A program made the translations under genes and the position numbers. From contig NZ_CP100763.1 in NCBI RefSeq assembly GCF_024296685.1, positions 2,170,001-2,234,000 on the forward strand: DNA of 64,000 nt, in the 5' to 3' direction. Numbering within the stretch: the stretch's first letter is position 1; every line of letters begins with the position of its first letter. A model generated the notes under the pieces. The model made no database searches. It saw nothing but the letters and a program-made list of their open reading frames with translations, and had not been told where the DNA came from. Below, piece by piece: positions 25,719 through 52,560 of this stretch. Source of the DNA: Natrinema marinum. GTDB lineage: Archaea; Halobacteriota; Halobacteria; Halobacteriales; Natrialbaceae.

Positions 25719-26735
25719 TCACTCGAGAGAGTTACACTCACGGGCGCACTGCTGGATGCCGATTCCGGCGATGTTCGCGCCGTACTCGCCGGTGCGGCGG
25801 ATGCTGTTGAGCAAGAGACCGACCACGTAGGCCTCGGCGGGATCGTCGTGGCCGTAGAGGTCCCGATCGAGCGCCCCAAGCTCTGCGGCCAGTTTGTTGC
25901 GCTCGGTGAGCGCTGTTTGCGCACCCTCGACCCCAGCGTCCGCGAGGATCACGTCCGCGGCCGCGTCGATGATCTGTCTGGAACTCGAGGCCAGCGAATC
26001 GATCCGATCCTCGAAATTCGCCGGAATCGTTACCTCGGGATCGAGGGTGAAGCGGGCGATCTTCTCGGCGTGGTCGGCGATCCGCTCGAACTGCCGGCAG
26101 ACGTAGTAGTATTCGAACAGTTCGTCCCGGGTGTACTCGAGCTTCTCGACCTCGTGGAGGCTCGTCAGGGCCCGCCGGAAGTGGCGAGTTACCATCGCGA
26201 ACAGCTTGTCGGCCTCGCTGTCGCGGTCGATGACGCGCTGTGCCAGCGTCTCGTCGTCGGTCAGAACGGCGCTCACCGCGTCACGGTGCATCCCGAGCAT
26301 CACGAGGCGGAGCCGGAGGGTCGACTTGCGGATATCGACGTTCTCGGCGTCGATGAGGTTCGTCAGCCGGATCGTCGTATCGCCGGCCTCGAGCAACTCG
26401 AACCCGGAGAGGTTCGCGACCGTGTCTTCGATGACTCCCCGACGTTCAGCGGAGTGACCCGTTCGGTCGACCAGCGCCACCGTATCGAAGCCGACGGCGT
26501 GCAGCGCGTAAATCCACTGTCTGATGGCGCTGTCCGAGTCGGTCGAGACATCCACCGTCGTCGACTGCGTCTCTTTCGTTCGGTCGGCCTCTGCTTCGAC
26601 CAGTAGCGATCCGTCGCCGTTTGGATACAGCGAGAGCGCCGATCCGGCGCTGATGCCGTGTTCCTGTGCCCACGCCTTCGGAAGCGAGATCGTATACGTC
26701 GTTCCCCCGGAGAGCTGGACTTTCCGTGTCTCCAT
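25719..26735 (-). CDS. PhoU-type phosphate regulator with N-terminal AbrB (SpoVT) DNA-binding domain
   Basis: This 338-residue protein starts METRKVQLSGGTTYTISLPKAW, an AbrB/SpoVT swapped-hairpin DNA-binding domain (about 1-45). Two PhoU-like three-helix-bundle units follow (about 110-215 and 225-330), with FERIADHAEKIA as the typical metal-binding PhoU signature. Such proteins in haloarchaea are annotated as phosphate uptake regulators. The start at 26735 fits a TATA-like element at 26761-26768. The gene is divergent from a second PhoU-type regulator, and both lie about 2 kb from the phosphonate locus, which suggests control of phosphorus acquisition. No pst genes are in the window. Confidence 0.88.
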   Translation of the reverse strand: METRKVQLSGGTTYTISLPKAWAQEHGISAGSALSLYPNGDGSLLVEAEADRTKETQSTTVDVSTDSDSAIRQWIYALHAVGFDTVALVDRTGHSAERRGVIEDTVANLSGFELLEAGDTTIRLTNLIDAENVDIRKSTLRLRLVMLGMHRDAVSAVLTDDETLAQRVIDRDSEADKLFAMVTRHFRRALTSLHEVEKLEYTRDELFEYYYVCRQFERIADHAEKIARFTLDPEVTIPANFEDRIDSLASSSRQIIDAAADVILADAGVEGAQTALTERNKLAAELGALDRDLYGHDDPAEAYVVGLLLNSIRRTGEYGANIAGIGIQQCARECNSLE

Positions 26736-26760
26736 ACACGAACTGCCACCCACCAAGAAT

Positions 26761-26768
26761 CCCTTAAC
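26761..26768 (-). promoter_or_regulatory. TATA-like box for the AbrB-PhoU gene
   Basis: The reverse strand of CCCTTAAC lies about 30 nt before ATG 26735, which suggests a leaderless message. The frame upstream to 27092 is therefore not part of the gene. Confidence 0.55.
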
Positions 26769-26905
26769 GTTGATATGAACGGTCCGTGCCGATACTGAGA
26801 CCCATATATCAGCACGATACGATAAATGGGCATACGGCTCGGGCCGGAATTCGCTCGATCGGATCACGAGGCTATAGAGTCGTCCGGACAGTCTGTGGAC
26901 CAACT

Positions 26906-26913
26906 CTAATATC
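26906..26913 (+). promoter_or_regulatory. TATA-like box for the HTH-PhoU gene
   Basis: CTAATATC is centred about 25 nt before ATG 26934. Together with the element at 26761-26768 it defines a compact divergent promoter region between the two PhoU-type genes. Confidence 0.5.
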
Positions 26914-26933
26914 GGGAGCCGAGACCGGCAGGT

Positions 26934-27839
26934 ATGTCCCGTCGAACGTGGCAACGCCCGCTCGGAGCGGGCGGCCGTGACGCGACGCGTGCCCAGGTCG
27001 TCGAAGCGATCGACAGGACCGCGCCCGAGACCAAAGAGGAACTGGCGAGCGCGGTCGGCATCTCCGAACAGTATCTCTCGGAACTGCTCCAAGAGCTCAA
27101 AGCCGCGGACGTAGTGCGCAAGGGCTACGTCGTCGACGACGCGGCCCTGTACGACAATTCAGGACAGATCTCGAAACTGTACGGCTCCGATTCCGGCGTC
27201 GCGGAGATCGTCTCGAGCGAGGAGGTGGGTGCTCACGGAACGGCAGTACTGGAACTGCTCGACCGCCTTGAGTCAGTGACTACTCGCCAGTACGACGCCG
27301 CTCGCGCGGCGTTTCTCGGCGAGAGCGTCGAGCATTCGGCCAAGACGCTGGAGTCGCTCACCAACGAACGCTACTCGGCGGTTCTCTCGGAACTGAAATC
27401 GTACACGTTGACGACCGACTGGCCGGGCAACCGCGTCGCAGCGGATCTGTCGACCATCGCGACGAACCTCGAGATCGTCGGCGATCGGGCCTGTTTCATC
27501 GCCGATGTCGTCGACCGCGAAGCGGGCGACGCGAACGGGATCGTCGGCGAGCGCATGGCTGACATCTTCGCCTCGGGGGCACAGATCAACGAGTACTTCT
27601 CGCAGATCCTGTTCGACTGTGAACTCGCGGTCCACCACCAACTCCGCGATCAGGAGGAGACCGTCCACCGAGATCTGGACGAGCTGTTCGAGCTCGTCAC
27701 GGCGTACGATCCTGACATGTACGGCTATCTGGTGGCGATTACGCGGGCGCTCGAGCGAGCGATCTACTACTGGGTCGACGCCGCGGAACTGGCGGTGAAG
27801 ATTCACTCCGGCCACCAGCCGGATCACGTCGAAATCTGA
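26934..27839 (+). CDS. PhoU-domain protein with N-terminal helix-turn-helix
   Basis: This 301-residue protein has an HTH at about 18-65 (AQVVEAIDRTAPETKEELASAVGISEQYLSELL contains the turn and recognition helix). A linker and two PhoU-like helical bundles follow (about 100-190 and 200-295), with NLEIVGDRACFIADVV in place of the usual metal-binding pattern. It is predicted to be a phosphate-responsive regulator. It is divergent from the AbrB-PhoU gene, so two PhoU proteins with different DNA-binding heads share one intergenic region. The 3' end overlaps the convergent membrane-protein gene by 16 nt. Confidence 0.85.
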   Translation: MSRRTWQRPLGAGGRDATRAQVVEAIDRTAPETKEELASAVGISEQYLSELLQELKAADVVRKGYVVDDAALYDNSGQISKLYGSDSGVAEIVSSEEVGAHGTAVLELLDRLESVTTRQYDAARAAFLGESVEHSAKTLESLTNERYSAVLSELKSYTLTTDWPGNRVAADLSTIATNLEIVGDRACFIADVVDREAGDANGIVGERMADIFASGAQINEYFSQILFDCELAVHHQLRDQEETVHRDLDELFELVTAYDPDMYGYLVAITRALERAIYYWVDAAELAVKIHSGHQPDHVEI

Positions 27840-28565: not shown

Positions 28566-29231
28566 TCAGTCCCGGATCATCTGCTCGGGGTCTTCGGGCG
28601 CGTACTGCGAGAGAAACGTCTCGAGGTCGCGGAACGCGTCGAGGCGCTCGGCCAGCGTCTCGTGGTCCCACTGCCACCACTCGGTCGCCTCGAGACGAGC
28701 GGCCACGTCCTCGGGGAACCGCCGGCGGATCGGTTCGGCGGGGACCCCGGCGACGATCGTGTAGGCGGGGACATCCCTGGCGACGACGGCGCCGGCACCG
28801 ACGACCGCCCCGTTGCCGATGGTGACCCCGGGCAGGACGATCGCGCCGTGGCCGATCCAGACGTCGTGACCGACCTCGACCGGCTGATCGGCCCGCCAGT
28901 CGAAGATCGACTCGTCGTCGCTGCCGAGGTCGTACATCGCCGCCCGGTAGGTGAAGTGGTGGGCCGTCGGGCGGTCGATCGGATGGTTCGTCGGGCCGAG
29001 CCTGGCGTCGGCCGCGACGTTGCCGAACGTTCCGACGGTGGCGTAATCGAGTTGGACCCGCTCCATGAGATAGGTGTAGTCGCCGATCGCCGACTCGTTG
29101 AGCCGCGCGTGCCGTCGGACTTCGGTCCACGCACCGAGTTCGCTCTCGCTGATCGAGACGGGGTCGTGTAGCGTCGGTTCCGGCCCGAGCGTGCGCGTCC
29201 TGTCGGGCCCGTAGTCGTCGTAGTAGGTCAT
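28566..29231 (-). CDS. Phosphonate-locus hexapeptide acyltransferase (DapH/LacA fold)
   Basis: This 221-residue left-handed beta-helix protein has hexapeptide repeats ([44 protein letters not shown]), ending in [17 protein letters not shown]. This matches the phosphonate-metabolism transferase hexapeptide family (TIGR03308-like), which accompanies C-P lyase operons in bacteria and probably acetylates amino-phosphonates or a related intermediate. The start overlaps the phnE stop by 4 nt (ATGA), so it is the last gene of the phnD-C-E unit. Substrate and acyl donor are not shown by sequence. Confidence 0.88.
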
Positions 29232-30259
29232 CGTTCGCGTCGCCCCATCGTGGACGCGAGGATTTTCTTCGGCGAGTCGAGGAACGCCTCGAGGACGCCG
29301 GAGGTCTCGACGGTATCGTCATCGCGGAGCATCGACCGAACCCGCTGGCTGATCAGTTCGACCGAGCCCGCGAGCAGGAAGATCAGGATGATGCAGGCCA
29401 TCATCTCGGTGTAGTGGAAGGTCTGGCGCTGGATGTACAGCTCCAGCCCGAGGCCGCCGGCACCGATGATACCGAGTCCGATCGCCGCCCGGACGTTGTG
29501 CTCGAGGTCGAAGGCGATCCAGGCGATGAACTGCCGGACCACCTGACTCAACATACCGAAGGAGACGACCTGCGAGCGGCTCGCGCCGGTCGAGCGGATC
29601 CCTTCGATCGGGCCGTCCTCGATCTCCTCGAGTTCGTCGGTGAACAGCCGCCCGAGGTAGCCGGTGGTGTCGACCATGATCGCCAGCGCGCCGGTAAACG
29701 GCGTGACGCCCGCCAGCGGAATCAAGATCAGGAACCACACGAGTCCCGGGATCGCACGGATCAGGCTCATGGTGGCCCGGAAGACGAAGTTGAACGGATA
29801 GGGGACGACACGTTCGCTTGACATAACCCCGAAAAACAGCGCCAGCGGTAGCCCAAGCACCGTCCCGGCGAAGGCGACGGCCATCGTCACGAACATCGCA
29901 CCCCAGACGATTCGGCCGTTCTCGATGGAGAGAATCAGGTTCTCCTCGACGATGAAGCTCACGTACGCGCCCAGATCGACGAATGGGATCCCGAAGTACG
30001 TCGTCGGCGGGAAGTACTCCAGTAGCGCCTCGTAGAACTGACCGAACTGCCCCACCAGCTCCGCGAGATTGAACTCGATGACGCGCAGGCTGGCGTAGAA
30101 CAGGAAGGCGGTGCCGATCAGTCCGATCAGCGTGTAGAGTCGCCGCCGCGTCTTGCGACGCTTCATATTCTGTAGTTTCTGCTCGGCGGGCGAATCACCG
30201 ATCTCGGCGTAGCCGAAGTAGGCCGCGATGGAGTCGTCCTCCGAAGGCGGCGTGCTCAT
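29228..30259 (-). CDS. phnE: Phosphonate ABC transporter permease
   Basis: This 343-residue inner-membrane permease has a long polar N-terminus and about six transmembrane helices. The ABC permease EAA loop is recognisable as [20 protein letters not shown], followed by a C-terminal [16 protein letters not shown] helix. It carries phosphonates, or phosphate or phosphite, delivered by PhnD. The gene overlaps phnC by 4 nt and the acyltransferase gene by 4 nt. It is longer than bacterial PhnE (about 260 residues) because of about 70 extra N-terminal residues. Confidence 0.93.
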
Positions 30260-31086
30260 GGTTTGATCCCTCTCTCGACGTTCTCGGTGGACCGGGCGTC
30301 GGTGTGATCGGCGTCACCGATGTCGTCGAGGATCGCCTCGACCGACTCGTCCTGTTCGGCGAGTCCGACCGTCTCGACGCTCCCGTAGAGATCGTCGATC
30401 AACTCGGGCGAGAGTTCGCCGCGCTCGACGTCGAACAGTTTTTGTCCGTCGCGCAGGCCGATGAATCGGTCGCCGAAGTAGGCGGCGATGTTGACCTGAT
30501 GGAGGCTGACCAGCGCGGTCACGTCGTGTTCCTTGGCGGCTTTCCGCAGGTAGCCCATCACCGTCTCGGCGCTCGAGGGGTCGAGACTGGCGACCGGTTC
30601 GTCGGCCAGCAGCAATCGCGGATCCTGCACGAGCGCTCGAGCGATGCCGACGCGTTGCTGTTGGCCGCCGGACATCTGCGAGACGCGCTGGTGGCTCTCC
30701 TCGAGCAGGCCAACGGTTTCGAGCGCTTCTAGCGCGCGGAGTTTGTCCTCCTGTGACTGCCACTGGAGCAGGCTTCGGAGCGTCGAGACGCGGGTGAGCG
30801 AGCCCGTGAGCGCGTTGAGATACGCCGACATCCCATCGACGAGGTTGTGCTGCTGGAAGATCATCCCAACGTCGGTCTGGGAACCCGTGATCTCCGCCTC
30901 GTCGAGATAGATGGCCCCGTCGGTCGGGTCGGTCAGTCCGTTGATACACCGCAGCAACGTCGACTTGCCCGCGCCGGATTCGCCCAGCAGGACGGCGAAT
31001 TCGTCCTCGATTTCGAAGGATACGTCCTCGAGGGCGGTCACGTCCCCGTACTGCTTCGATACGTTTTCGACTTTGAGTGTACTCAT
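30256..31086 (-). CDS. phnC: Phosphonate ABC transporter ATPase
   Basis: This 276-residue ATPase has Walker A GESGAGKS, Q-loop MIFQQHN, signature MSGGQQQRV, Walker B LLLADEP and the switch His in SLHQVN. LRCINGLTDPTDG and SYLNAL-type segments are typical of PhnC. It energises the PhnE permease. It lies 27 nt downstream of phnD and overlaps phnE by 4 nt. The C-terminal 35 residues are an acidic extension beyond the usual ATPase end. Confidence 0.94.
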   Translation of the reverse strand: MSTLKVENVSKQYGDVTALEDVSFEIEDEFAVLLGESGAGKSTLLRCINGLTDPTDGAIYLDEAEITGSQTDVGMIFQQHNLVDGMSAYLNALTGSLTRVSTLRSLLQWQSQEDKLRALEALETVGLLEESHQRVSQMSGGQQQRVGIARALVQDPRLLLADEPVASLDPSSAETVMGYLRKAAKEHDVTALVSLHQVNIAAYFGDRFIGLRDGQKLFDVERGELSPELIDDLYGSVETVGLAEQDESVEAILDDIGDADHTDARSTENVERGIKP

Positions 31087-31113: not shown

Positions 31114-32142
31114 TTAGGCCGCAGGGTCGATGCCGACGGCGTTCATGCGGTCGATGACCGGTTGGTAGTCCTCTACGGACGTGTCGCGCAGCGTGGTAAA
31201 GGGCAGTTCCTCCTCGTTGTAGTCGTCGGGGTAGTACTCCGTGATCTGCTCTTTCGTGGAGTTCCGGAGGACTTCGCCGATCTCTTCTTTCTTGTCCGAC
31301 TCCCAGGATTTCCGGGCGTACATCGGCTGCTTCGGGATCGGGAACGACCACCAGATCGGCTTGAACTGCGGCGTCTCGGTGCCCATCGTGTCCAGAAACG
31401 AGCTCTTGTCTTGGACGCGCTGGGGCACCTCGGTGCCTTCCGGGAGGTGCGGGATCCCGTTGCCACCCCACGTGGTCGCGCCGGCTGCCTTGCCCTGGGC
31501 GAGTCGCTGGAGCGCCTGGTCGTGGTCGGTCCAACTGCCCTCGAAGTCGACCGGGTCCCCCTTGGGCGCTTCGCCGATGTCGAGTCCGGCTTCCTGAAGC
31601 GTGTACAGCGCAAAGATAGAGCCACTGGTCGACAGGCGGTCGGCGAACGCCCACGTCTTGCCCTCGACGTCGGTACGCTCGTCGATCTCCGAATCCGGGT
31701 TAACGAGCATCATCGAGAAGTAGAACGCCGAGCCGCCGGTCACGGTCGTCCCGTAGACGTCCATGAGGTCCGGGTTCGAGAGCAGCGTCACGTCGTCCAT
31801 CCCGATCTCGGCCTGCTCGCTCTCGAGGGCGGGACGGATCGCCGAGTAGTCCTGCGGGACCTGCATCTCGACCTCGATGTCGTCGATTTCGCCGTTGAGC
31901 AGGTTCTGGACGGGCTTGTACCGCCGACGGGCGTCGGCCGGCGTGCCCGGTGTCAGGAGCATCGTGACGGTCTCTGCACCGGACGTATTACTGCTGCTGA
32001 GGCCCAGACAGCCGGCGAGTCCTGCGGTGCCGACGATCGCAGCGCTGCTAGCGATGAACGTTCGTCGGCCGGCCGATCCCGTATCGAGACTGCTGTTCGG
32101 TGTCGATACCCCTAATCCGTCGTCAGTCGGGTCCTCGGACAT
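31114..32142 (-). CDS. phnD: Phosphonate-binding lipoprotein
   Basis: This 342-residue periplasmic-binding-type protein starts at ATG 32142. A twin-Arg signal (GRRTFIASSAAIVG) and a lipobox AGC predict Tat export and lipid anchoring. The mature part has the PhnD fold: LLTPGTPADARRRYKP, then the GMDDVTLLSNPD and FYFSMMLVNP segments and a PIPKQPMYARKSW C-terminal region. It presents phosphonate to PhnE-PhnC. A TATA-like element at 32166-32173 lies 28 nt upstream and fixes the start. The open reading frame continues far to the right antisense to phnG-phnJ, but that extension is spurious. Confidence 0.92.
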   Translation of the reverse strand: MSEDPTDDGLGVSTPNSSLDTGSAGRRTFIASSAAIVGTAGLAGCLGLSSSNTSGAETVTMLLTPGTPADARRRYKPVQNLLNGEIDDIEVEMQVPQDYSAIRPALESEQAEIGMDDVTLLSNPDLMDVYGTTVTGGSAFYFSMMLVNPDSEIDERTDVEGKTWAFADRLSTSGSIFALYTLQEAGLDIGEAPKGDPVDFEGSWTDHDQALQRLAQGKAAGATTWGGNGIPHLPEGTEVPQRVQDKSSFLDTMGTETPQFKPIWWSFPIPKQPMYARKSWESDKKEEIGEVLRNSTKEQITEYYPDDYNEEELPFTTLRDTSVEDYQPVIDRMNAVGIDPAA

Positions 32143-32368
32143 CAACTCAGTTCTGGGAGAAGGGTCGAATAACGATTGGCTGTGTAGAGTCCGAATCGTC
32201 CGTCTCGGGTGCCGATCGGTCCGGCTCGAGACGGGGGCTGGAAAAACGAGTCCGTACTCGTCCGTACTTCGGATTCTGGTGTGGGGAATGAACCCCGAAG
32301 GCGAGCGAACCATAGAGAGTACCGAGAGAATCCTTATGCAGTCGTTTGGGCGTGTTTCGACCGAGTGT
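32143..32368. promoter_or_regulatory. Divergent phn promoter region with candidate operators
   Basis: This 226-bp region drives phnD leftward and phnG rightward. CGAATAAC at 32166-32173 is a TATA candidate for phnD (28 nt before the ATG). TCCTTATGC at 32331-32339 is one for phnG (about 34 nt before). Between them lie an inverted repeat, CCGTCTCG (32200-32207) and CGAGACGG (32227-32234), and a 10-bp near-perfect tandem repeat, TCCGTACTCG/TCCGTACTTC (32251-32270). Either could bind a phosphate-responsive regulator, which is inference. Confidence 0.55.
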
Positions 32369-32812
32369 ATGGTTGATCCACACGACAGATCCGATCGGTT
32401 CGAGTTGATCGCCGCCTGCGAGGAGGCGACGCTCGCCCAGTTCGCCGACGACGTGCTCGAGGGGGACCCGCCGCTGTCGGTCCGCCAAGAACCGCGGCCG
32501 CAGTTGCTGATGCAACGGGTACGCGAGCCAGTCGAACGCCGCCCGTTCAACCTCGGCGAGGTACTGGTGACGCCAGCGGAGGTCGAACTCGAGGGGACGC
32601 GCGGGTTCGCCATGGTGGCAGGCAAGCGCGAACGGGCCGCGCTCTCGGGTGCGATCGTCGACGCCGCCGTCGCCGCGGGCCGCGAGGAGACACCCGCGAT
32701 CGTCGCCGCTTTGGAGGACGTAGCCACCCGCCAGCGCGAGCAGCGACGCCGGGAATGGGCCCGGAGCAAACACACCGCCGTCGAGTTCGAGACGATGGAG
32801 GGCGAAGAGTGA
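32369..32812 (+). CDS. phnG: C-P lyase subunit PhnG
   Basis: This 147-residue protein is a subunit of the PhnGHIJ core complex that attaches phosphonate to the ribose of ATP. It has the PhnG-like EATLAQFADDVL, RQEPRPQLLMQRVREPVERRPFNLGEVLVTPAEVEL and GYAMVAG-type (here GFAMVAGKRERAALSGAIVDA) blocks. The start ATG 32369 is about 34 nt below a TATA-like element. Its stop overlaps the phnH start (GTGA), so this is the first gene of the nine-gene rightward operon. Confidence 0.92.
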   Translation: MVDPHDRSDRFELIAACEEATLAQFADDVLEGDPPLSVRQEPRPQLLMQRVREPVERRPFNLGEVLVTPAEVELEGTRGFAMVAGKRERAALSGAIVDAAVAAGREETPAIVAALEDVATRQREQRRREWARSKHTAVEFETMEGEE

Positions 32813-33351
32813 GAGCCCTCGGCATCGACCCCGTTCACGACACCCGCCGGACGTTCGACGGGCTCCTCGAGGCGATGAGTCGGCCCGGAACCGTCCACGC
32901 CGTCCCGACGCCCGCAGACTACGCCGTCGTCGCGACCCTCGTCGACCACGAGGTGACGCTGGCGACCGACGACGAGATGTTGCGAGACGCCCTTGCCGAT
33001 CAGGGCCGATTCGAGGGTGCCCCGCGCGAGGAAGCGGACATCGTCCACGCCCGCGAGTACACGGGGTGGGACGTACGGGACTGCGAACGCGGCTCGCTGA
33101 CCGAGCCAAGCGACGGGGCGACCGTCGTCTACCGCGTCGATGCGCTCGAGGACACCGACGACGGACCCACGCTCAGTCTCTCGGGTCCCGGTGTCGACGG
33201 AACGGCACCGCTGTCGGTGGCCCTGCCCGAGGCGGAACTGTCCGCGCTCGCGGCGGCCCAGTCCGACTACCCGCGCGGCGTCGACGCCGTCTTCGCCACC
33301 GAGGATCGCGTGGCCGCACTCCCGCGGTCCGTAACGATGGAGGTGGTCTGA
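32809..33351 (+). CDS. phnH: C-P lyase subunit PhnH
   Basis: This 180-residue PhnH-family protein has DPVHDTRRTFDGLLEAMSRPGTV at its N-terminus, the family hallmark, and a C-terminal FPRGVDAVF-like block (YPRGVDAVFATEDRVAALPRS). It is a homodimeric part of the PhnGHI-J core with a PLP-transferase-like fold but no PLP. The start is GTG at 32809, overlapping the phnG stop by 4 nt. The product ends immediately before phnI. Confidence 0.92.
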   Translation: MRALGIDPVHDTRRTFDGLLEAMSRPGTVHAVPTPADYAVVATLVDHEVTLATDDEMLRDALADQGRFEGAPREEADIVHAREYTGWDVRDCERGSLTEPSDGATVVYRVDALEDTDDGPTLSLSGPGVDGTAPLSVALPEAELSALAAAQSDYPRGVDAVFATEDRVAALPRSVTMEVV

Positions 33352-34485
33352 GTGGGCTACGTCGCGGTTGCCGCCGGCGAAGAACTCATCGAGCGCGCCG
33401 AGCAACTGTTCGAGAAACAGCGCATCGACGACGAGACCGACGATATCGGCGTCGAGCAGCTCGAGGGCCAACTCGGCCGTCTCACCGCACAGGCGATGAG
33501 CGAGGGGGGCCTCTACACGCCGCGACTGGCCGCACTGGCGGTCAAGCAGGCACAGGGCGACACCGTCGAGGCCGCGTTCCTGTTGCGGGCGTACCGCTCG
33601 ACGCTGGAGCGGTTCGACGAGACGACCACGGTCGAGCCGGGCGAGATGATCGCCAGTCGGCGGGTTTCGCCGGCGTTCAAGGACGTCCCCGGTGGGCAGA
33701 TCCTCGGCGCGACCAAAGACTACACCCAGCGACTGCTGGATTTCGACCTCGTCGACGGCGAGCCCGAAGACCCCACCGCCGAGTGGGACGTAGACGACGA
33801 GGGCGATCCCGAGCGACTGACCAACGTCACGGAACTGCTCCGGGACGAAGGGCTGTTGCACGAACCCGACGAGCCGGCGGTCGACGAACCGAACGACACG
33901 ACCCGGGAGTCGGTCACGCATCCGCCCGAGCGCGACGAAGTCCTGCAGGAACTGGCCCGCGGCGAGACCGGCGCGGTGACCGCGCTGGGGTACTCCGCGC
34001 TGCGAGGGTACGGCCAGGTCCACCCGACGCTGGCGGAGGTTCGGGTCGGACGCCTGCCCGTCCGGATCGAACACCCCTACACCGGGGACGAGGTGACCGT
34101 CACCCACGCCGAGGTCAGCGAGTCCGAGGCGGTCGTCCCCGTCTACGAGAAGCGCGAGGACCCCCAGTTCGCGTTCGGCTACGGGCTGACCTTCGGCCGC
34201 AACGAGCGCAAGGCGATCGGGATGACCATCCTGGACGCCTCGGTCCAGCTCGACGGCGACGACGAACCAGCCGAGAACGCCGAGTTCGTCCTCGATACGG
34301 TCGACGGGATGGACTCCTTTGGCTTCATCGAACACCTCAAACTCCCCCACTACGTCACCTTCCAGTCGATTCTGGACCGCATCCGCGCCATCAGAGAGCG
34401 CACGGGGGTAAGCGAGGACGGCCGCGTCGAATCCGACGAACAGCCTGCGGACCCGGCAGTCGCGAGACCGAGTGACGATGACTGA
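33352..34485 (+). CDS. phnI: C-P lyase subunit PhnI
   Basis: This 377-residue PhnI, the nucleosidase-like subunit, displaces adenine from ATP with phosphonate. The N-terminus MGYVAVAAGEELIERAEQLF, then LGRLTAQAMSEGGLYTPRLAALAVKQAQGD and the C-terminal FGYGLTFGRNERKAIGMTILD and FIEHLKLPHYVTFQS blocks are strongly PhnI-like. It begins with GTG directly after the phnH stop, with no intergenic base. Its 3' end overlaps phnJ by 8 nt. Confidence 0.95.
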   Translation: MGYVAVAAGEELIERAEQLFEKQRIDDETDDIGVEQLEGQLGRLTAQAMSEGGLYTPRLAALAVKQAQGDTVEAAFLLRAYRSTLERFDETTTVEPGEMIASRRVSPAFKDVPGGQILGATKDYTQRLLDFDLVDGEPEDPTAEWDVDDEGDPERLTNVTELLRDEGLLHEPDEPAVDEPNDTTRESVTHPPERDEVLQELARGETGAVTALGYSALRGYGQVHPTLAEVRVGRLPVRIEHPYTGDEVTVTHAEVSESEAVVPVYEKREDPQFAFGYGLTFGRNERKAIGMTILDASVQLDGDDEPAENAEFVLDTVDGMDSFGFIEHLKLPHYVTFQSILDRIRAIRERTGVSEDGRVESDEQPADPAVARPSDDD

Positions 34486-35542
34486 ACACGCACCCACCGA
34501 CGACGTATCGCCCGACGGGGGCACGCCCGTCGCGACCGACTCCGTCGACGCCGCTCTCGAGTCGCTGAACAGCGACGGGCTCGAGGGGTACAACTACGCG
34601 TACCTCGACGAACACACCAAACGCGAGGTCCGGCGCTCGATACTGAAAGCCGTCGCCATCCCCGGCCATCAGGTGCCTTACGCCTCCCGGCCGATGCCGC
34701 TGGCCCGCGGGTGGGGCACCGGCGGTATTCAGGCCTCGCTGTCGATCCTCGGCCCCGAGGACAGCTTCAAGGTGATCGATCAGGGCGCAGACGAGAGCGT
34801 CAACGCCGCCAACATCCGGCGGCTGGCCGAGAACACCGCCGACGTGGCGACGACGACCGACACCACCGAGGCGGACCTGATCCAGAGTCGCCACCGCATC
34901 CCCGAGGAGGTACTGACCGACGAGCAGCGCCTGGTGTTGCAGGTTCCGATCACCGACGCGCTGCGGAAGGTCGACCCGTCGGACGCGGCCAACCGTCGGC
35001 GACACGCCCACAAGAACTACGGGAAAATGTGGGTCCACCTCTACGAGAACGTCGTCGAGTACGGCGAGATCAAGATCGCCTCTCGGTACCCGACGATGGT
35101 CGCCGGACGCTACCTGATGGATCCCTCGCCGATCCCGCGGTGGGACGTGCCGAAACTCGACCACGCGGACCATCTCACTGTGCTGGCCGCGGGCCGGGAA
35201 GCGCGTATCTACGCCGTCCCGCCACACACCGAGGTCGAGCCGCTGGCCTTCGAGGACCGCCAGTTCACCGTCGAGCGTTTCCCCGACGAGGCCTGTCACG
35301 CCTGCGGGTCGACCGACACCTACCTCGTCGAGGTCTCGGAGGAGGCCGCCGCGGACGTGGACGACGCCTTCGAGACCCGCTACGCCTGCAACGACTCGAG
35401 TTTCTGCGAGAAGCGCCGCGAGGCTCCCGACATCGCGAAGGACCACCACCTCGACGAGACGGTCGACTGGGGTCCGGGCACGCCCGACGCGGCTGGGGAC
35501 GCTGCCGGAACGGCGACCGAACGGGGAGGTGACGGGGAATGA
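34478..35542 (+). CDS. phnJ: C-P lyase radical SAM subunit PhnJ
   Basis: This 354-residue enzyme cleaves the C-P bond of ribosyl alkylphosphonate 5-phosphate, releasing alkane and the 1,2-cyclic phosphate. From ATG 34478 the conserved cysteines are Cys273, Cys276, Cys304 and Cys310, spaced C-x2-C-x27-C-x5-C. This matches the E. coli arrangement (C-x2-C-x21-C-x5-C) in which three Cys hold the 4Fe-4S cluster and the last forms the thiyl radical. It is longer than the E. coli protein (281 residues), with about 30 extra residues at each end. A GTG six bases upstream is an alternative start. Confidence 0.95.
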   Translation: MTEHAPTDDVSPDGGTPVATDSVDAALESLNSDGLEGYNYAYLDEHTKREVRRSILKAVAIPGHQVPYASRPMPLARGWGTGGIQASLSILGPEDSFKVIDQGADESVNAANIRRLAENTADVATTTDTTEADLIQSRHRIPEEVLTDEQRLVLQVPITDALRKVDPSDAANRRRHAHKNYGKMWVHLYENVVEYGEIKIASRYPTMVAGRYLMDPSPIPRWDVPKLDHADHLTVLAAGREARIYAVPPHTEVEPLAFEDRQFTVERFPDEACHACGSTDTYLVEVSEEAAADVDDAFETRYACNDSSFCEKRREAPDIAKDHHLDETVDWGPGTPDAAGDAAGTATERGGDGE

Positions 35543-36369
35543 CGCTGCTGGAGGCACAGGGCCTGCAGACGCGCTACGGTCCCGGCTGTCCCCGCTGCGT
35601 CGAGTCGACCGGCGACCGCGCGGGGACGAACCAGTGTCCCCACTGCGGAACCGTCGTCGCCTGCGCCGAGGCCGACCTCAGCGTCGAGGCCGGCGAGGTG
35701 CTTGGCATCGTCGGCGAGTCCGGGTCCGGCAAGTCCAGCCTCGCGGAACTGCTCGCGCTCGAGCGCGACGACGACGCCACGACCGCCGGCGAGGTCGACT
35801 ACGCGGGCCGCGACGGCAATCTGCTCGAGGTGGACTACGAGACGCGCCACGACCTCCGTACGGGAGAGATCGCGCTCGTCCACCAGCACATCCGGGACGG
35901 CCTGAACCTCGAGTTCACCGGCGGCGGCAACGTCGCGGAGAAACTGCTCTCGGCCGGTCAGCGCTCCTACGAGGATGTCCGCGCGCGAGTTCGTGACCTC
36001 TTCGACGAGACGGAGATCCCGGTCGCCCGGATGGACGACCCAACCAGTACCTACTCCGGGGGGATGCAGCGTCGCGTCCAGATCGCCCGCGCGCTGGCGA
36101 CCGACCCGGATCTGGTCGTGCTGGACGAACCGACCACGGGCCTCGACGTGAGCGTCCAAGCCCGCGTACTAGACATGTTCCGACGCGTCCAGCGCGAAGA
36201 GGGCGTCGCCGCCATCGTGGTCTCTCACGACCTGAGCGTCGTCCGCCTGCTCGCCGATCGGACGCTCGTGATGCGTCACGGCCGCATCGTCGAGTCCGGG
36301 CTCACCGACCGCATCATGGAAGACCCACACCACGAGTACACCCAGACCCTCATCAATTCAGTCATATGA
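35539..36369 (+). CDS. phnK: C-P lyase ATPase PhnK with a four-Cys insertion
   Basis: This 276-residue ABC-type ATPase associates with the PhnGHIJ core. Walker A is GESGSGKS (residues 59-66), signature YSGGMQRRV, Walker B LVVLDEP and switch VVSHDLS. Unlike E. coli PhnK, the N-terminal strand is followed by an insertion with CPRC (Cys17, Cys20) and CPHC (Cys33, Cys36), a probable zinc ribbon, before the Walker A segment. It starts with the ATGA overlap of phnJ and ends 4 nt into phnL. The insertion sits where contact with PhnJ would be possible, which is inference. Confidence 0.92.
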   Translation: MTLLEAQGLQTRYGPGCPRCVESTGDRAGTNQCPHCGTVVACAEADLSVEAGEVLGIVGESGSGKSSLAELLALERDDDATTAGEVDYAGRDGNLLEVDYETRHDLRTGEIALVHQHIRDGLNLEFTGGGNVAEKLLSAGQRSYEDVRARVRDLFDETEIPVARMDDPTSTYSGGMQRRVQIARALATDPDLVVLDEPTTGLDVSVQARVLDMFRRVQREEGVAAIVVSHDLSVVRLLADRTLVMRHGRIVESGLTDRIMEDPHHEYTQTLINSVI

Positions 36370-37103
36370 CAGTCCTGTCCGTCGACGGTCTCTCTAAGAC
36401 CTTCGACATGCACGTGCTCGGCGACACGCAGGTCGTCGGGCTCGACGACGTATCGTTCGACGTCCGCGAGGGCGAGTTTCTCGCCGTCGTCGGAGAGTCC
36501 GGTAGCGGCAAGTCCTCGCTGCTGAAGTGTCTGTACCGCACCTACGATCCCAGTTCGGGCGAGGTCGTCTACCGCGGCCCAGACGGCGACGTGGATCTGG
36601 CCTCGTGTCCCGACCGGACGATCATCGACCTCCGGGGGGACAGCATCGGCTACACGTCGCAGTTCTTAGACGAGATTCCGCGGGTCCCCGCGGTCGACGT
36701 GGTCGCTCGGCCGCTGGTCGAACAGGGGGCCGATCGCGAGGAGGCACGGTCGACCGCTCGAGACCTGCTGTCGGCGCTGTCGGTGCCCGAGGAACTGTGG
36801 CAAGCGTATCCGGCGACGTTCTCCGGCGGCGAGCGCCAGCGGGTGAACCTCGCGCAGGCGGTCGCGCCGAAACCGGCATTGCTCCTGCTGGACGAACCGA
36901 CCAGCGCGCTCGACCCCGATACCCGCCAGGCCGCGATCGACCTCCTGTCGACGTATCTCGGGTCGGAGACGACGGTCGTCGGCGTCTTCCACAACACGGA
37001 CGTGGTCGAAGCCGTCGCGGACCGCGTGGTCGTCTTGGACGACGGGCGTCTTCAGCGGGTCGTCCCCGCCGAGGCGTACGACGAGGAGGTGGTGATCGGA
37101 TGA
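36366..37103 (+). CDS. phnL: C-P lyase ATPase PhnL
   Basis: This 245-residue ABC-type ATPase has Walker A GESGSGKS, Q-loop YTSQFLDEIPRV, signature FSGGERQRVNLAQ, Walker B LLLLDEP and a FHNTD-type switch. TFDMHVLGDTQVVGLDDVSFDV at the start is typical of PhnL. It works with PhnGHI in making the ribosyl phosphonate intermediate. The gene overlaps phnK and phnM by 4 nt each. Confidence 0.93.
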   Translation: MTVLSVDGLSKTFDMHVLGDTQVVGLDDVSFDVREGEFLAVVGESGSGKSSLLKCLYRTYDPSSGEVVYRGPDGDVDLASCPDRTIIDLRGDSIGYTSQFLDEIPRVPAVDVVARPLVEQGADREEARSTARDLLSALSVPEELWQAYPATFSGGERQRVNLAQAVAPKPALLLLDEPTSALDPDTRQAAIDLLSTYLGSETTVVGVFHNTDVVEAVADRVVVLDDGRLQRVVPAEAYDEEVVIG

Positions 37104-38263
37104 GGTCGACCGCCCAGACCGCCGAGGAAAGCGTGGCCGTCGTCGGCGGACGCGTCGTCACACCCGAGACCGTGCTCGAGGGCGGCGTCCGAATCGAGGG
37201 CGACCGCATCGTCGACGTTGGAGCCGTCGACGACGACGCCGATACCGTGATCGAGGCCGACGGCCGCCTGATCGTGCCCGGCCTGATCGACCTCCACGGC
37301 GACGACATCGAGGGACACCTCCACCCGCGCTCGGGCGCTCGAATGGGGCTCCCGATGGCGCTCGCCTCGGCCGATCGTGCGAACATCTCGGCGGGTATCA
37401 CGACGAAGTTCCACGCGATTTCCTTCGAGCGCGACGAGGCGGAAGACCGCTCGCCCGAACTCGCGGCGACGCTGACGGCCGCCATCGCCGACGACGACGA
37501 CCTGCTCGCGGACCACCGCCTGCACGCCCGCTGTGAAGTCACCCAGAAACAATGCGTCGACGCGGTGCTGGATGTCGTCGAGGACGGTCACGCCGACCTC
37601 GTTTCGGTGATGAGCCACATCCCTGGGAAGGGCCAGTTCCGAGATATCGAGGCGTTCAAACGGTACTACGAGAACGCAAACGACCGCTCGATCGAGGAGG
37701 CAGAGGAGATGATCGAGGAACGAAGCGATGTCTCGATGGCGACGCTGCGCGATCGCATCGACCGGGTCGTCGGAGCCGCCCACGACGCCGGTGCGGTGAC
37801 GGCCTCACACGACGACGAGGACCCGACCGAGGTCGAGCGACTGGCCGACTCTGGGGTCGACATCACGGAGTATCCCATCACGCTCGAGACGGCCGAGCGC
37901 GCCGCCGACATCGGCATGACCACGGCGATGGGCGCGCCCAATCTCGTCCGCGGGGAGAGCCAGTGGGGCAACCTCTCGACGGCCGACGCCATCGACGCCG
38001 GCGTCGTCGACGCACTCGTCGCCGACTACCATCCACCGTCGCTGCTCGCGGCCGCGTTCGTCGACACCGGGGAACCCCTGCCCGAGCGGATCAACCGCGT
38101 CAGCGCCGCTCCCGCCGACGCAGTCGGGTTGGACGACCGCGGTCGGATCGAAGTCGAGGCGCGCGCCGACCTGCTCGTCGTCGACCGCGATCCGACGCCG
38201 ACGGTCGCCCGCGCGCTCGTCGCGGGCCGGCCGGTGTACCGCGCCGATCGGGTGACGCGATGA
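37100..38263 (+). CDS. phnM: Alpha-D-ribose 1-methylphosphonate 5-triphosphate diphosphatase PhnM
   Basis: This 387-residue amidohydrolase-fold enzyme removes pyrophosphate from ribosyl phosphonate triphosphate. LIVPGLIDLHGDDIEGHLHPR contains the metal-binding His/Asp cluster of PhnM. HARCEVTQKQCVD, VMSHIPGKGQFRD, SHDDEDPTEV and TTAMGAPNLVRG are further family blocks. The start ATG 37100 overlaps the phnL stop (ATGA). The length is close to that of E. coli PhnM (378). Its product feeds PhnJ, which is encoded in the same operon. Confidence 0.94.
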   Translation: MRSTAQTAEESVAVVGGRVVTPETVLEGGVRIEGDRIVDVGAVDDDADTVIEADGRLIVPGLIDLHGDDIEGHLHPRSGARMGLPMALASADRANISAGITTKFHAISFERDEAEDRSPELAATLTAAIADDDDLLADHRLHARCEVTQKQCVDAVLDVVEDGHADLVSVMSHIPGKGQFRDIEAFKRYYENANDRSIEEAEEMIEERSDVSMATLRDRIDRVVGAAHDAGAVTASHDDEDPTEVERLADSGVDITEYPITLETAERAADIGMTTAMGAPNLVRGESQWGNLSTADAIDAGVVDALVADYHPPSLLAAAFVDTGEPLPERINRVSAAPADAVGLDDRGRIEVEARADLLVVDRDPTPTVARALVAGRPVYRADRVTR

Positions 38264-39066
38264 CCGCGAGCATCGGCGCAGCGATGGACATCCGCTTCGG
38301 AGAGACCGTCGAGGAGTTCATGCGCTACGTCACCGACCTCGGACTGGACCACGTCGAGTTCAAACGCGAATACCTCGCGGGCCATCCGGAGACGCCCGGC
38401 CCCGAGCGGATTCGAGAGCTGTCCGAGCGCTACGGCGTCAGCCTTACGTACCACGCACCCTTTAGAGACTGGAACATCGGCAGCTACGACGAGGTGGTCC
38501 GGCAGGATTCCGTCGAGCGGGTCAAGCGAACCCTCGACGACGCCGCCGAGGCCGGGGCCGGAGCCGTCGTCGTGCACGGCGGATCGGTCCCGAAGCGCTA
38601 CCCCGAGTGGGTCCGCGACCGCGCGAAACGGAACGCGCTGCGCTCGCTCGCGGAGTGTGCCGAGTACGCGCAACTGGTCGGCGTGTCGCTGTGTCTGGAG
38701 AACCAACCCATCAACGAACAGAAGCAGCGCTATACCACGACGCCGGCGGCTCTCGCGTCGATGCGGAACACCGTCGACGTGCCACCCAAATACTTCGGCG
38801 TCACGCTCGACGTGGGCCACGCGAAGGTCAACGGCTACGACTGGCGCGCGTTCGTCGCGGAGTTCGGCCATCGGATCAGGGTCTGTCACCTCCACGACAA
38901 CGACGGTACCGCCGACCAGCACGAGCCGTTTCCCGACTACGAGCCGGTCGTCGAGGCGATTCCAGCGGACTACTTCGTCTTCGAGATGAAGTCCGTCGAC
39001 GACCTGGCGGCGAGCGTCGGCACCGATGAGACGCCCCCCGAAACGGAGGTGACGGGCCGTGAATGA
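38260..39066 (+). CDS. Phn-linked TIM-barrel protein (AP endonuclease 2 / COG1082 family)
   Basis: This 268-residue TIM-barrel metalloenzyme starts at ATG 38260, overlapping phnM by 4 nt. Database-style naming would be sugar phosphate isomerase/epimerase. Residues that align in order with the nine zinc ligands of endonuclease IV are present: His65 (YHAPF), His106 (VVHGG), Glu147 (LENQP), Asp184 and His187 (DVGH), His212 (LHDND), Asp219 and His221 (DQH), Glu242 (FEMK). Given its place after phnM and the lack of phnP, a phosphodiesterase or isomerase step on the ribose cyclic phosphate is plausible. That is inference, and an isomerase role for a C-P lyase product is the alternative. Confidence 0.82.
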   Translation: MTASIGAAMDIRFGETVEEFMRYVTDLGLDHVEFKREYLAGHPETPGPERIRELSERYGVSLTYHAPFRDWNIGSYDEVVRQDSVERVKRTLDDAAEAGAGAVVVHGGSVPKRYPEWVRDRAKRNALRSLAECAEYAQLVGVSLCLENQPINEQKQRYTTTPAALASMRNTVDVPPKYFGVTLDVGHAKVNGYDWRAFVAEFGHRIRVCHLHDNDGTADQHEPFPDYEPVVEAIPADYFVFEMKSVDDLAASVGTDETPPETEVTGRE

Positions 39067-39730
39067 CGGTTTGGCGGGCGACTACGACGCCGTCGTCTTC
39101 GACAACGACGGCGTGCTGGTCGCGCCGACCGACCGCGAGGTGCTCGTCGACGCCGTCGTGGACTCCTTTCGGGCCTTCGGCGTCGAGATCGACCGGTCGT
39201 TCGCACGGCGGACGGTCGCCGAAGACGCCGTCCCGGTCGAAGCGGCCCGCGAACACGGCCTCGATCCGGAAGCGTTCTGGCACCACCGCGAGTTGACCGC
39301 CAGCCTCGCCCAGCAGGCCCACGTCCGGGAGGGCGGCAAACCGGTCTACGACGACGTCGCGGCGCTCGAGCGGCTGGACCGTCCCCTCGGGATAGTGAGC
39401 AACAACCAGCAGGCGACGGTCGAGTTTCTGCTCGCACACCACGAGCTGGATCGGTTCGAGACGGCCTACGGTCGACGGCCGACGCTCGCGGGTGCGGCCG
39501 GACGCAAGCCGGAGCCGGACTACCTCGAGCGGGCGCTGGCGGACCTAGACGCGAGCGAGGCGCTATACGTCGGTGACTCCGAGAAAGACATCGTCGCGGC
39601 CCGACGCGCCGGTATCGACTCGGTCTTTCTCCGTCGGGACCACGTTGCGGACGTGGCGCTTTCCGTCGAGCCGACTGCTGAAGTGCCAGACCTCCGGACG
39701 TTGGTCGATGTGCTCCCTGCACAGCACTGA
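39059..39730 (+). CDS. HAD phosphatase at the end of the phn operon
   Basis: This 223-residue HAD hydrolase has motif I FDNDGVL, motif II GIVSNNQ, motif III Lys in GRKPEP, motif IV YVGDSEKD and a C1 helical cap (about 25-95). It begins with GTG at 39059, overlapping the TIM-barrel gene by 8 nt, so it is the last member of the phnGHIJKLM unit. It may dephosphorylate a ribose phosphate from C-P lyase, but similar HAD proteins occur widely in haloarchaea. A phosphonatase (PhnX) role is unlikely, because the PhnX cap-domain Lys signature was not found. Confidence 0.85.
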   Translation: MNDGLAGDYDAVVFDNDGVLVAPTDREVLVDAVVDSFRAFGVEIDRSFARRTVAEDAVPVEAAREHGLDPEAFWHHRELTASLAQQAHVREGGKPVYDDVAALERLDRPLGIVSNNQQATVEFLLAHHELDRFETAYGRRPTLAGAAGRKPEPDYLERALADLDASEALYVGDSEKDIVAARRAGIDSVFLRRDHVADVALSVEPTAEVPDLRTLVDVLPAQH

Positions 39731-51681: not shown

Positions 51682-52560
51682 TTACTCGTCGTCGCGCAGT
51701 TCTCGGACCTTCTCGATGTTCCACGCGAAGCCGCGGCCGTCCTCCGTCGGTGTCTCGAGCGCGAAGGGCAGGTCCCGCAGGTCGGGGTGGTTCACGATCG
51801 CGCGCATGCCGTCCTCGCCGATGTAGCCCTCGCCGATGTGGGCGTGCTCGTCCTTGTGGGTACCCACGTCGTGTTTCGAGTCGTTGAGGTGGATGTACTC
51901 GAGGTACTCGAGGCCCACCACGTCGTCGAACCGACCGACCGTCTCGTCGACGGCTTCGGGCGTCGTCAGGTCGTTGCCCGCGACGAGCGTGTGGGCGGTG
52001 TCGATGCAGATGCCGATATCCGTTTCGGTGCGGTCGATGATCCCCGCGAGGTGGTCGAACTCGCCGCCGAGTTTCGTTCCGCTGCCCGCGTCGGATTCGA
52101 TGAGGATCTGGACGTCCTCGGGCACCTCGAGGTCGTCGATGACGCCCGCGGCGTTGTCCAGTCCGCCTTCGACGCCCGCGCCAGTGTGGGCCCCGAGGTG
52201 GACGTTGACGTACGGGACGCCGAGGCGGTCGGCGGCGTCGAGTTCGGCCTGCATGCTCTCCATCGATTTCCGCCGGAGGTCCTCCTTGGGAGTACAGAGG
52301 TTCACGAGGTACGCCGAGTGGATCACCCACGGCCCCTCGAGTTCCTCGTCGGTCGCGTCTCGAAAGCCCTCGGCGGCCTCGCCGCCGATTTCGGGCTGGG
52401 CCCAGACCTGCGGCGAGGTCGTGAATATCTGCCCGCAGTTGCCGCCGAAGGCGCGCTGGCGGTGGACCGCGTTGCGGATGTCGTCGTACGGCGGCGTCTC
52501 CTCGTCCGAGGAGACGCGCGAGCCGGAGATCGAAACGTGTGCGCCAACCTTCATCGTCAT
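51682..52560 (-). CDS. nfo: Deoxyribonuclease IV (AP endonuclease)
   Basis: This 292-residue endonuclease IV repairs abasic DNA sites through a trinuclear zinc centre. Ligand motifs are present in order: [48 protein letters not shown] and ALETPTEDG. The start ATG 52560 is 27 nt below a TATA-like CCTATCAC (reverse strand, 52583-52590), with ATG 52554 as an alternative. It is a helpful local standard for judging the phn-linked TIM-barrel protein at 38260, which has the same ligand pattern. Confidence 0.94.

Follow-up and report, generated by a model that had tools for sequence, protein, structure and literature searches.

C-P lyase is a major microbial route of phosphonate use and converts methylphosphonate to methane. 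In Escherichia coli, PhnJ yields 5-phosphoribosyl 1,2-cyclic phosphate, the ring of which is opened by PhnP, and PhnN makes PRPP (PMC10574752). Bacterial C-P lyase operons also use unrelated stand-ins for PhnP, namely RcsF (PMC10574752) and, as we observed, a PHP gene that adjoins the phn operon of Mesobacillus. Both PhnPP, which is PHP-type, and RcsF, a 2H phosphodiesterase, are lineage-specific, like the replacement proposed here, but they have other folds and belong to other families (PMC8774927, PMC10574752). A 2023 review described archaeal C-P lyase operons, H. walsbyi among the examples, that lack phnNOP (PMC10574752). In the open-access literature we found no paper naming a PhnP replacement or a role for the gene described below, and nothing direct on haloarchaeal C-P lyase or on the relative MJ1311; a report in a subscription journal is possible. 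The AP_endonuc_2 superfamily already contains a demonstrated small-molecule phosphodiesterase with conserved His, Asp and Glu residues, the cobamide remodeling enzyme CbiR (NF041277; PMC7733943), which has cobamides as its substrates and is encoded among cobamide genes, whereas the gene described here lies in phn operons at all loci examined. This gene, the TIM-barrel gene that follows phnM, probably encodes a trinuclear-metal AP_endonuc_2 phosphodiesterase of small molecules that takes the place of PhnP when archaea degrade phosphonates by C-P lyase.

The phn operon and its TIM-barrel protein

The window of 64,000 nucleotides spans C1:2170001-2234000 in a haloarchaeal genome that is complete and 3.77 Mb in size. 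On its forward strand phnG-H-I-J-K-L-M are followed by a 268-residue TIM-barrel gene and a HAD gene, and the coordinates bear out the order and the overlaps of 4-8 nt given in the first-pass annotation. The open frame at 31877-32812, which precedes phnH, contains phnG, whose true start is further in; phnG was recognized by similarity only, through copies aligned by tblastn that occupy the same place in 37 loci. Pfam and NCBIfam models identified phnH (32755-33351; TIGR03292, 145.9 bits), phnI (33352-34485; PF05861, 447 bits), the C-P lyase radical SAM subunit phnJ (34472-35542; PF06007, 431 bits) and phnM (37100-38263; NF011990, 439 bits, cut-off 233). The best NCBIfam matches of phnK (35539-36369; TIGR02323, 214.8 bits) and phnL (36366-37103; TIGR02324, 241.9 bits) were below the cut-off of 302.85 and just below that of 256.3, respectively. 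The locus thus has the phnG-M core of a C-P lyase operon. The TIM-barrel gene (P0001; 38260-39066) starts 4 bases before the end of phnM at 38263, and the HAD gene (P0002; 39059-39730) starts with a GTG 8 bases before the end of the TIM-barrel gene.

Upstream of phnG-M and divergent from it lie phnD, phnC, phnE and a hexapeptide acyltransferase gene. On the reverse strand, phnC (30256-31086) is kept beside phnG-M in nearly all loci, and both it and the permease gene phnE (29228-30259) take their names from the same genes of Haloferax alexandrinus. The hexapeptide acyltransferase gene adjoining phnE (28566-29231, reverse strand; PF00132) was found in 32 of the 37 haloarchaeal phn loci and is a possible functional stand-in for phnO; the phn operon of Mesobacillus is also adjoined by a DapH/GlmU-like gene. 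Two PhoU-domain-like regulators (25719-27092 and 26934-27839) lie upstream of the transport genes, and the phn locus of H. alexandrinus is likewise flanked by two PhoU-type genes.

The TIM-barrel protein belongs to the AP_endonuc_2 superfamily, as it matched PF01261 with 113.7 bits against a Pfam gathering cut-off of 31.1 and folded as a TIM barrel in an AlphaFold model (pLDDT 92, pTM 0.91). This model also matched E. coli endonuclease IV, with a TM of 0.74. The closest structure was MJ1311 of Methanocaldococcus jannaschii (PDB 3wqo; Z 29.0, against 25.1 for the next; rmsd 2.6, 246 residues), and MJ1311 was also the best sequence match to the TIM-barrel profile (E 5e-32). Eight of the nine metal ligands of the TIM-barrel protein were visible in its alignment with MJ1311, which differs in lacking the set R12, R69, R113 and R157 and W71. 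The authors of the MJ1311 structure reportedly found all nine ligands conserved and described residues from the partner subunit as narrowing the active site.

The nine endonuclease IV-type ligands of the TIM-barrel protein (H65, H106, E147, D184, H187, H210, D219, H221 and E242) were located in an alignment that took in the Nfo proteins of this genome and of M. tuberculosis, MJ1311 and further relatives, and their columns line up with this genome's own Nfo. That protein is encoded at 51682-52560 (reverse strand), outside the phn system, and is a true endonuclease IV, as had been claimed (TIGR00587, 217.9 bits, cut-off 129.65). The earlier ligand list stands except for its sixth member. This had been H212, as in an hhalign alignment with a single Nfo sequence. 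We assign H210 instead, since column 212 is Asn in Nfo and Ser in one haloarchaeal copy. Column 210 is His in all aligned relatives. All nine ligands, H210 included, are invariant across the 35 full-length haloarchaeal copies, and so are R12, R69, R113, R157, Y114 and W71.

Distribution among archaeal phn operons

We found phnJ in 38 of 391 Halobacteria genomes. A TIM-barrel profile search detected the clade of the TIM-barrel protein in all 38, across several haloarchaeal families, and in none of the 353 Halobacteria genomes without phnJ. This co-occurrence is far above chance; both genes lie in one operon, and it therefore mainly shows operon membership. In the haloarchaeal genomes surveyed, the clade was met solely in phn operons. 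Wherever the operon end was visible (37 of 37), the gene lay directly 3' of phnM, in most cases overlapping it by 4 bases as it does here. In the remaining phnJ genome (G313), the assembly of which has gaps, a fragment of the TIM-barrel gene lies nearby. Divergence of the TIM-barrel protein was correlated with the divergence of PhnJ (Mantel r 0.78) and of PhnM (0.86), as expected for one inherited unit. Operon membership leaves the exact step of the enzyme unfixed. A contig scan with strict peptide patterns matched haloarchaea only, which is no proof of absence from bacteria.

In the tree, the phn clade itself was weakly supported (0.38), and its sister clade was well supported. Members of the sister clade share 40-55% identity with the TIM-barrel protein and occur at other loci, in some genomes without phnJ. 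They have all nine ligands (L119, L121-L132, L136 and L159; for example, L122:6006-6773), and their hosts mostly lack phnJ. Because this nine-ligand sister clade occupies unrelated loci, the substrate cannot be read from the ligand set by itself. Its neighbours are often a homologue of ComB-like 2-phosphosulfolactate phosphatase, ECF transporter genes or RimK-like proteins. The present genome retains a sister-clade remnant of ~61 residues (L135; G000:C1:2837072-2837254), fused in frame to a partial class III aminotransferase-like sequence. Third-tier haloarchaeal AP_endonuc_2 proteins (L150 and L152) keep most of the nine ligands, and their genes neighbour glycerophosphodiester phosphodiesterase-like and nucleotidyltransferase-like genes.

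A second lineage emerged when 393 genomes from the same phylum were searched. In a distant archaeon (G397), the last gene of the phn operon, directly after phnM, encodes an AP_endonuc_2 protein (L173:425-1339) that is far diverged from the haloarchaeal clade and has all nine ligands. In the tree it grouped with alphaproteobacterial proteins (support 1.00), apart from the haloarchaeal clade. That two AP_endonuc_2 subfamilies occur in one operon slot, the second lineage being represented by one genome, is the best indication that such chemistry is required at this position. Among the other phn operons inspected, the three bacterial plasmid operons of Thermus, Nostoc and Mesobacillus had no annotated AP_endonuc_2 gene beside the phn genes, and the sequence of the Dysgonomonadaceae phn locus is truncated after phnL.

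The nearest plasmid relatives of the G397 protein include one of these alphaproteobacterial proteins, a member of an agrocinopine (sugar phosphodiester) catabolic cluster, located beside accF and accG. This protein (L176:7959-8855 on pAtK84b) has all nine ligands, is annotated as a myo-inositol catabolism protein and may be a sugar phosphodiesterase. Such a relative would also suit an enzyme that acts before C-P lyase, hydrolyzing phosphonate esters, for example those in which methylphosphonate or aminoethylphosphonate is carried on sugars or glycerol, to free phosphonate. This reaction would require the same chemistry and the same metal site, and environmental phosphonates are often esters. 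We nevertheless consider this role unlikely, as the constant presence of the gene and its position after phnM suit a core step better than a broadening of the substrate range, and as it would leave the PhnP step without a visible gene of its own in 38 genomes.

Known PhnP-step enzymes and other assignments

The absence of phnP and phnN from the operon, noted in the first-pass annotation, extends to the whole genome, in which neither reached its curated cut-off. PhnP (TIGR03307) and PhnN were above cut-off in none of the 38 phnJ genomes. A search of the phnJ genomes for DUF1045/RcsF gave no match, a weak absence because the controls gave none either. PHP proteins are encoded in this genome, as in 14 of 14 controls. 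A phnP homologue elsewhere in the genome would have spoken against the proposal had other phnP-less operons lacked the TIM-barrel gene, but all those surveyed in haloarchaea carry it. With PhnP and PhnN missing and the TIM-barrel hydrolase constant, the latter stands out as the candidate to open the ring.

One metallo-beta-lactamase protein, P0004, encoded outside the window at G000:C1:2486042-2486863, resembles PhnP. It keeps a Cys-rich N-terminus and is encoded in all 38 phnJ genomes, so that it could serve in the PhnP reaction and leave another task to the TIM-barrel enzyme. Its match to the PhnP model was weak, however (55.9 bits, cut-off 272), and other metallo-beta-lactamase models scored higher. 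P0004 is also encoded in 41 of 42 genomes without phnJ, making it a core haloarchaeal gene, and this equal presence ruled it out as a dedicated PhnP. That P0004 performs the reaction is accordingly improbable.

Public records annotate the TIM-barrel gene as a sugar phosphate isomerase/epimerase, and the fold is common to sugar isomerases and epimerases. On this assignment the protein would follow the PhnP step and have ribose phosphates as its substrates. Every isomerase cut-off is far above the scores of the protein, however; among the sugar isomerase and epimerase models, which included IolO, psicose epimerase and xylose isomerase, none exceeded its cut-off, and the best score was 39.8 against 305. 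The protein also has four residues typical of the trinuclear hydrolases, H65, H106, D219 and H221, whereas at the first two of these positions the aligned sugar epimerases lack His. An isomerase role is thus quite improbable. Least credible of all is that the protein is an endonuclease IV paralogue or a CbiR cobamide phosphodiesterase placed in the operon by chance, for although it shares the TIM barrel and nine ligands with Nfo and has CbiR as its best NCBIfam match, it scored only 66 bits with CbiR (cut-off 105) and 21 and 35.7 bits with the Nfo models (cut-offs 129.65 and 244), has no DNA-repair context, belongs to a clade met solely in phn operons and occurs in a genome with its own nfo.

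The TIM-barrel enzyme most likely opens the cyclic phosphate released by PhnJ, its substrate, reaction and product being those we infer. It would share with E. coli PhnP the reaction and the place in the pathway and differ from it in fold, as the protein is a TIM barrel, unrelated to the metallo-beta-lactamase fold of the PhnP family. As a candidate lineage-specific, unrelated replacement for PhnP, the gene is well supported on genomic grounds. The proposal of a non-homologous replacement, made in the first-pass annotation, agrees with the constant position, the nine-ligand site, the lack of PhnP and PhnN and the second lineage, but the HAD gene, its other component, is not constant. A single gene that at present bears a generic sugar isomerase annotation would then likely supply the missing step in all haloarchaeal operons examined. 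It would add another case in which PhnP has been replaced by a non-homologous enzyme, and would extend the endonuclease IV superfamily by an activity on small molecules.

Possible fate of the product, and the HAD gene

In the proposed mechanism, PhnJ would leave 5-phospho-alpha-D-ribosyl 1,2-cyclic phosphate, and the TIM-barrel enzyme would open its ring with a metal-activated water at the endonuclease IV-type site. The phosphates are probably bound by R12, R69, R113 and R157, located at the end of barrel strands or just after them. One possible product is ribose 1,5-bisphosphate, which could pass to the ribose 1,5-bisphosphate isomerase of this genome. The isomerase is above cut-off, and its gene adjoins one for a PfkB-like kinase; the pair is comparable to the haloarchaeal pentose bisphosphate pathway (PMC9700705). 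In 7 of 36 genomes, however, neither the isomerase (above cut-off) nor an operon HAD gene was found, and ribose 1,5-bisphosphate would have no known exit there. A double hydrolysis like that of PhnPP is therefore possible, in which the TIM-barrel enzyme would also remove the phosphate and the products would be ribose 5-phosphate and phosphate. Endonuclease IV removes 3'-phosphates as well as cleaving diesters.

A wider reading is tentative and, on balance, doubtful. AP_endonuc_2 proteins could represent a fourth class of phosphodiesterase recruited independently to C-P lyase pathways, besides the metallo-beta-lactamase, 2H and PHP classes, with at least two subfamilies recruited separately. 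In archaea, the endonuclease IV-type metal centre would then catalyse diester and monoester hydrolysis in one enzyme (cyclic phosphate to ribose 5-phosphate and phosphate). If true, such one-enzyme double hydrolysis would explain the absence of PhnN everywhere and why the isomerase and the HAD gene are dispensable.

Whether the TIM-barrel and HAD genes follow phnM as a pair in other genomes had been asked in the first-pass annotation. The TIM-barrel gene did so in all 37 visible operons, but the HAD gene was present in only 18 of 36 haloarchaeal phn operons, and it was rejected as a constant partner. That the HAD gene makes up for the isomerase where the latter is absent was likewise set aside, as the data gave a trend only (Fisher p 0.32). 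The HAD protein belongs to the HAD-IA hydrolases, with matches to PF00702/PF13419, 53.6 bits with TIGR01549 (cut-off 23.3) and the motifs D15xD17, S114, K150 and GDS. This optional last gene likely encodes a sugar-phosphate phosphatase, which may serve as a helper on the sugar phosphates that result from ring opening.
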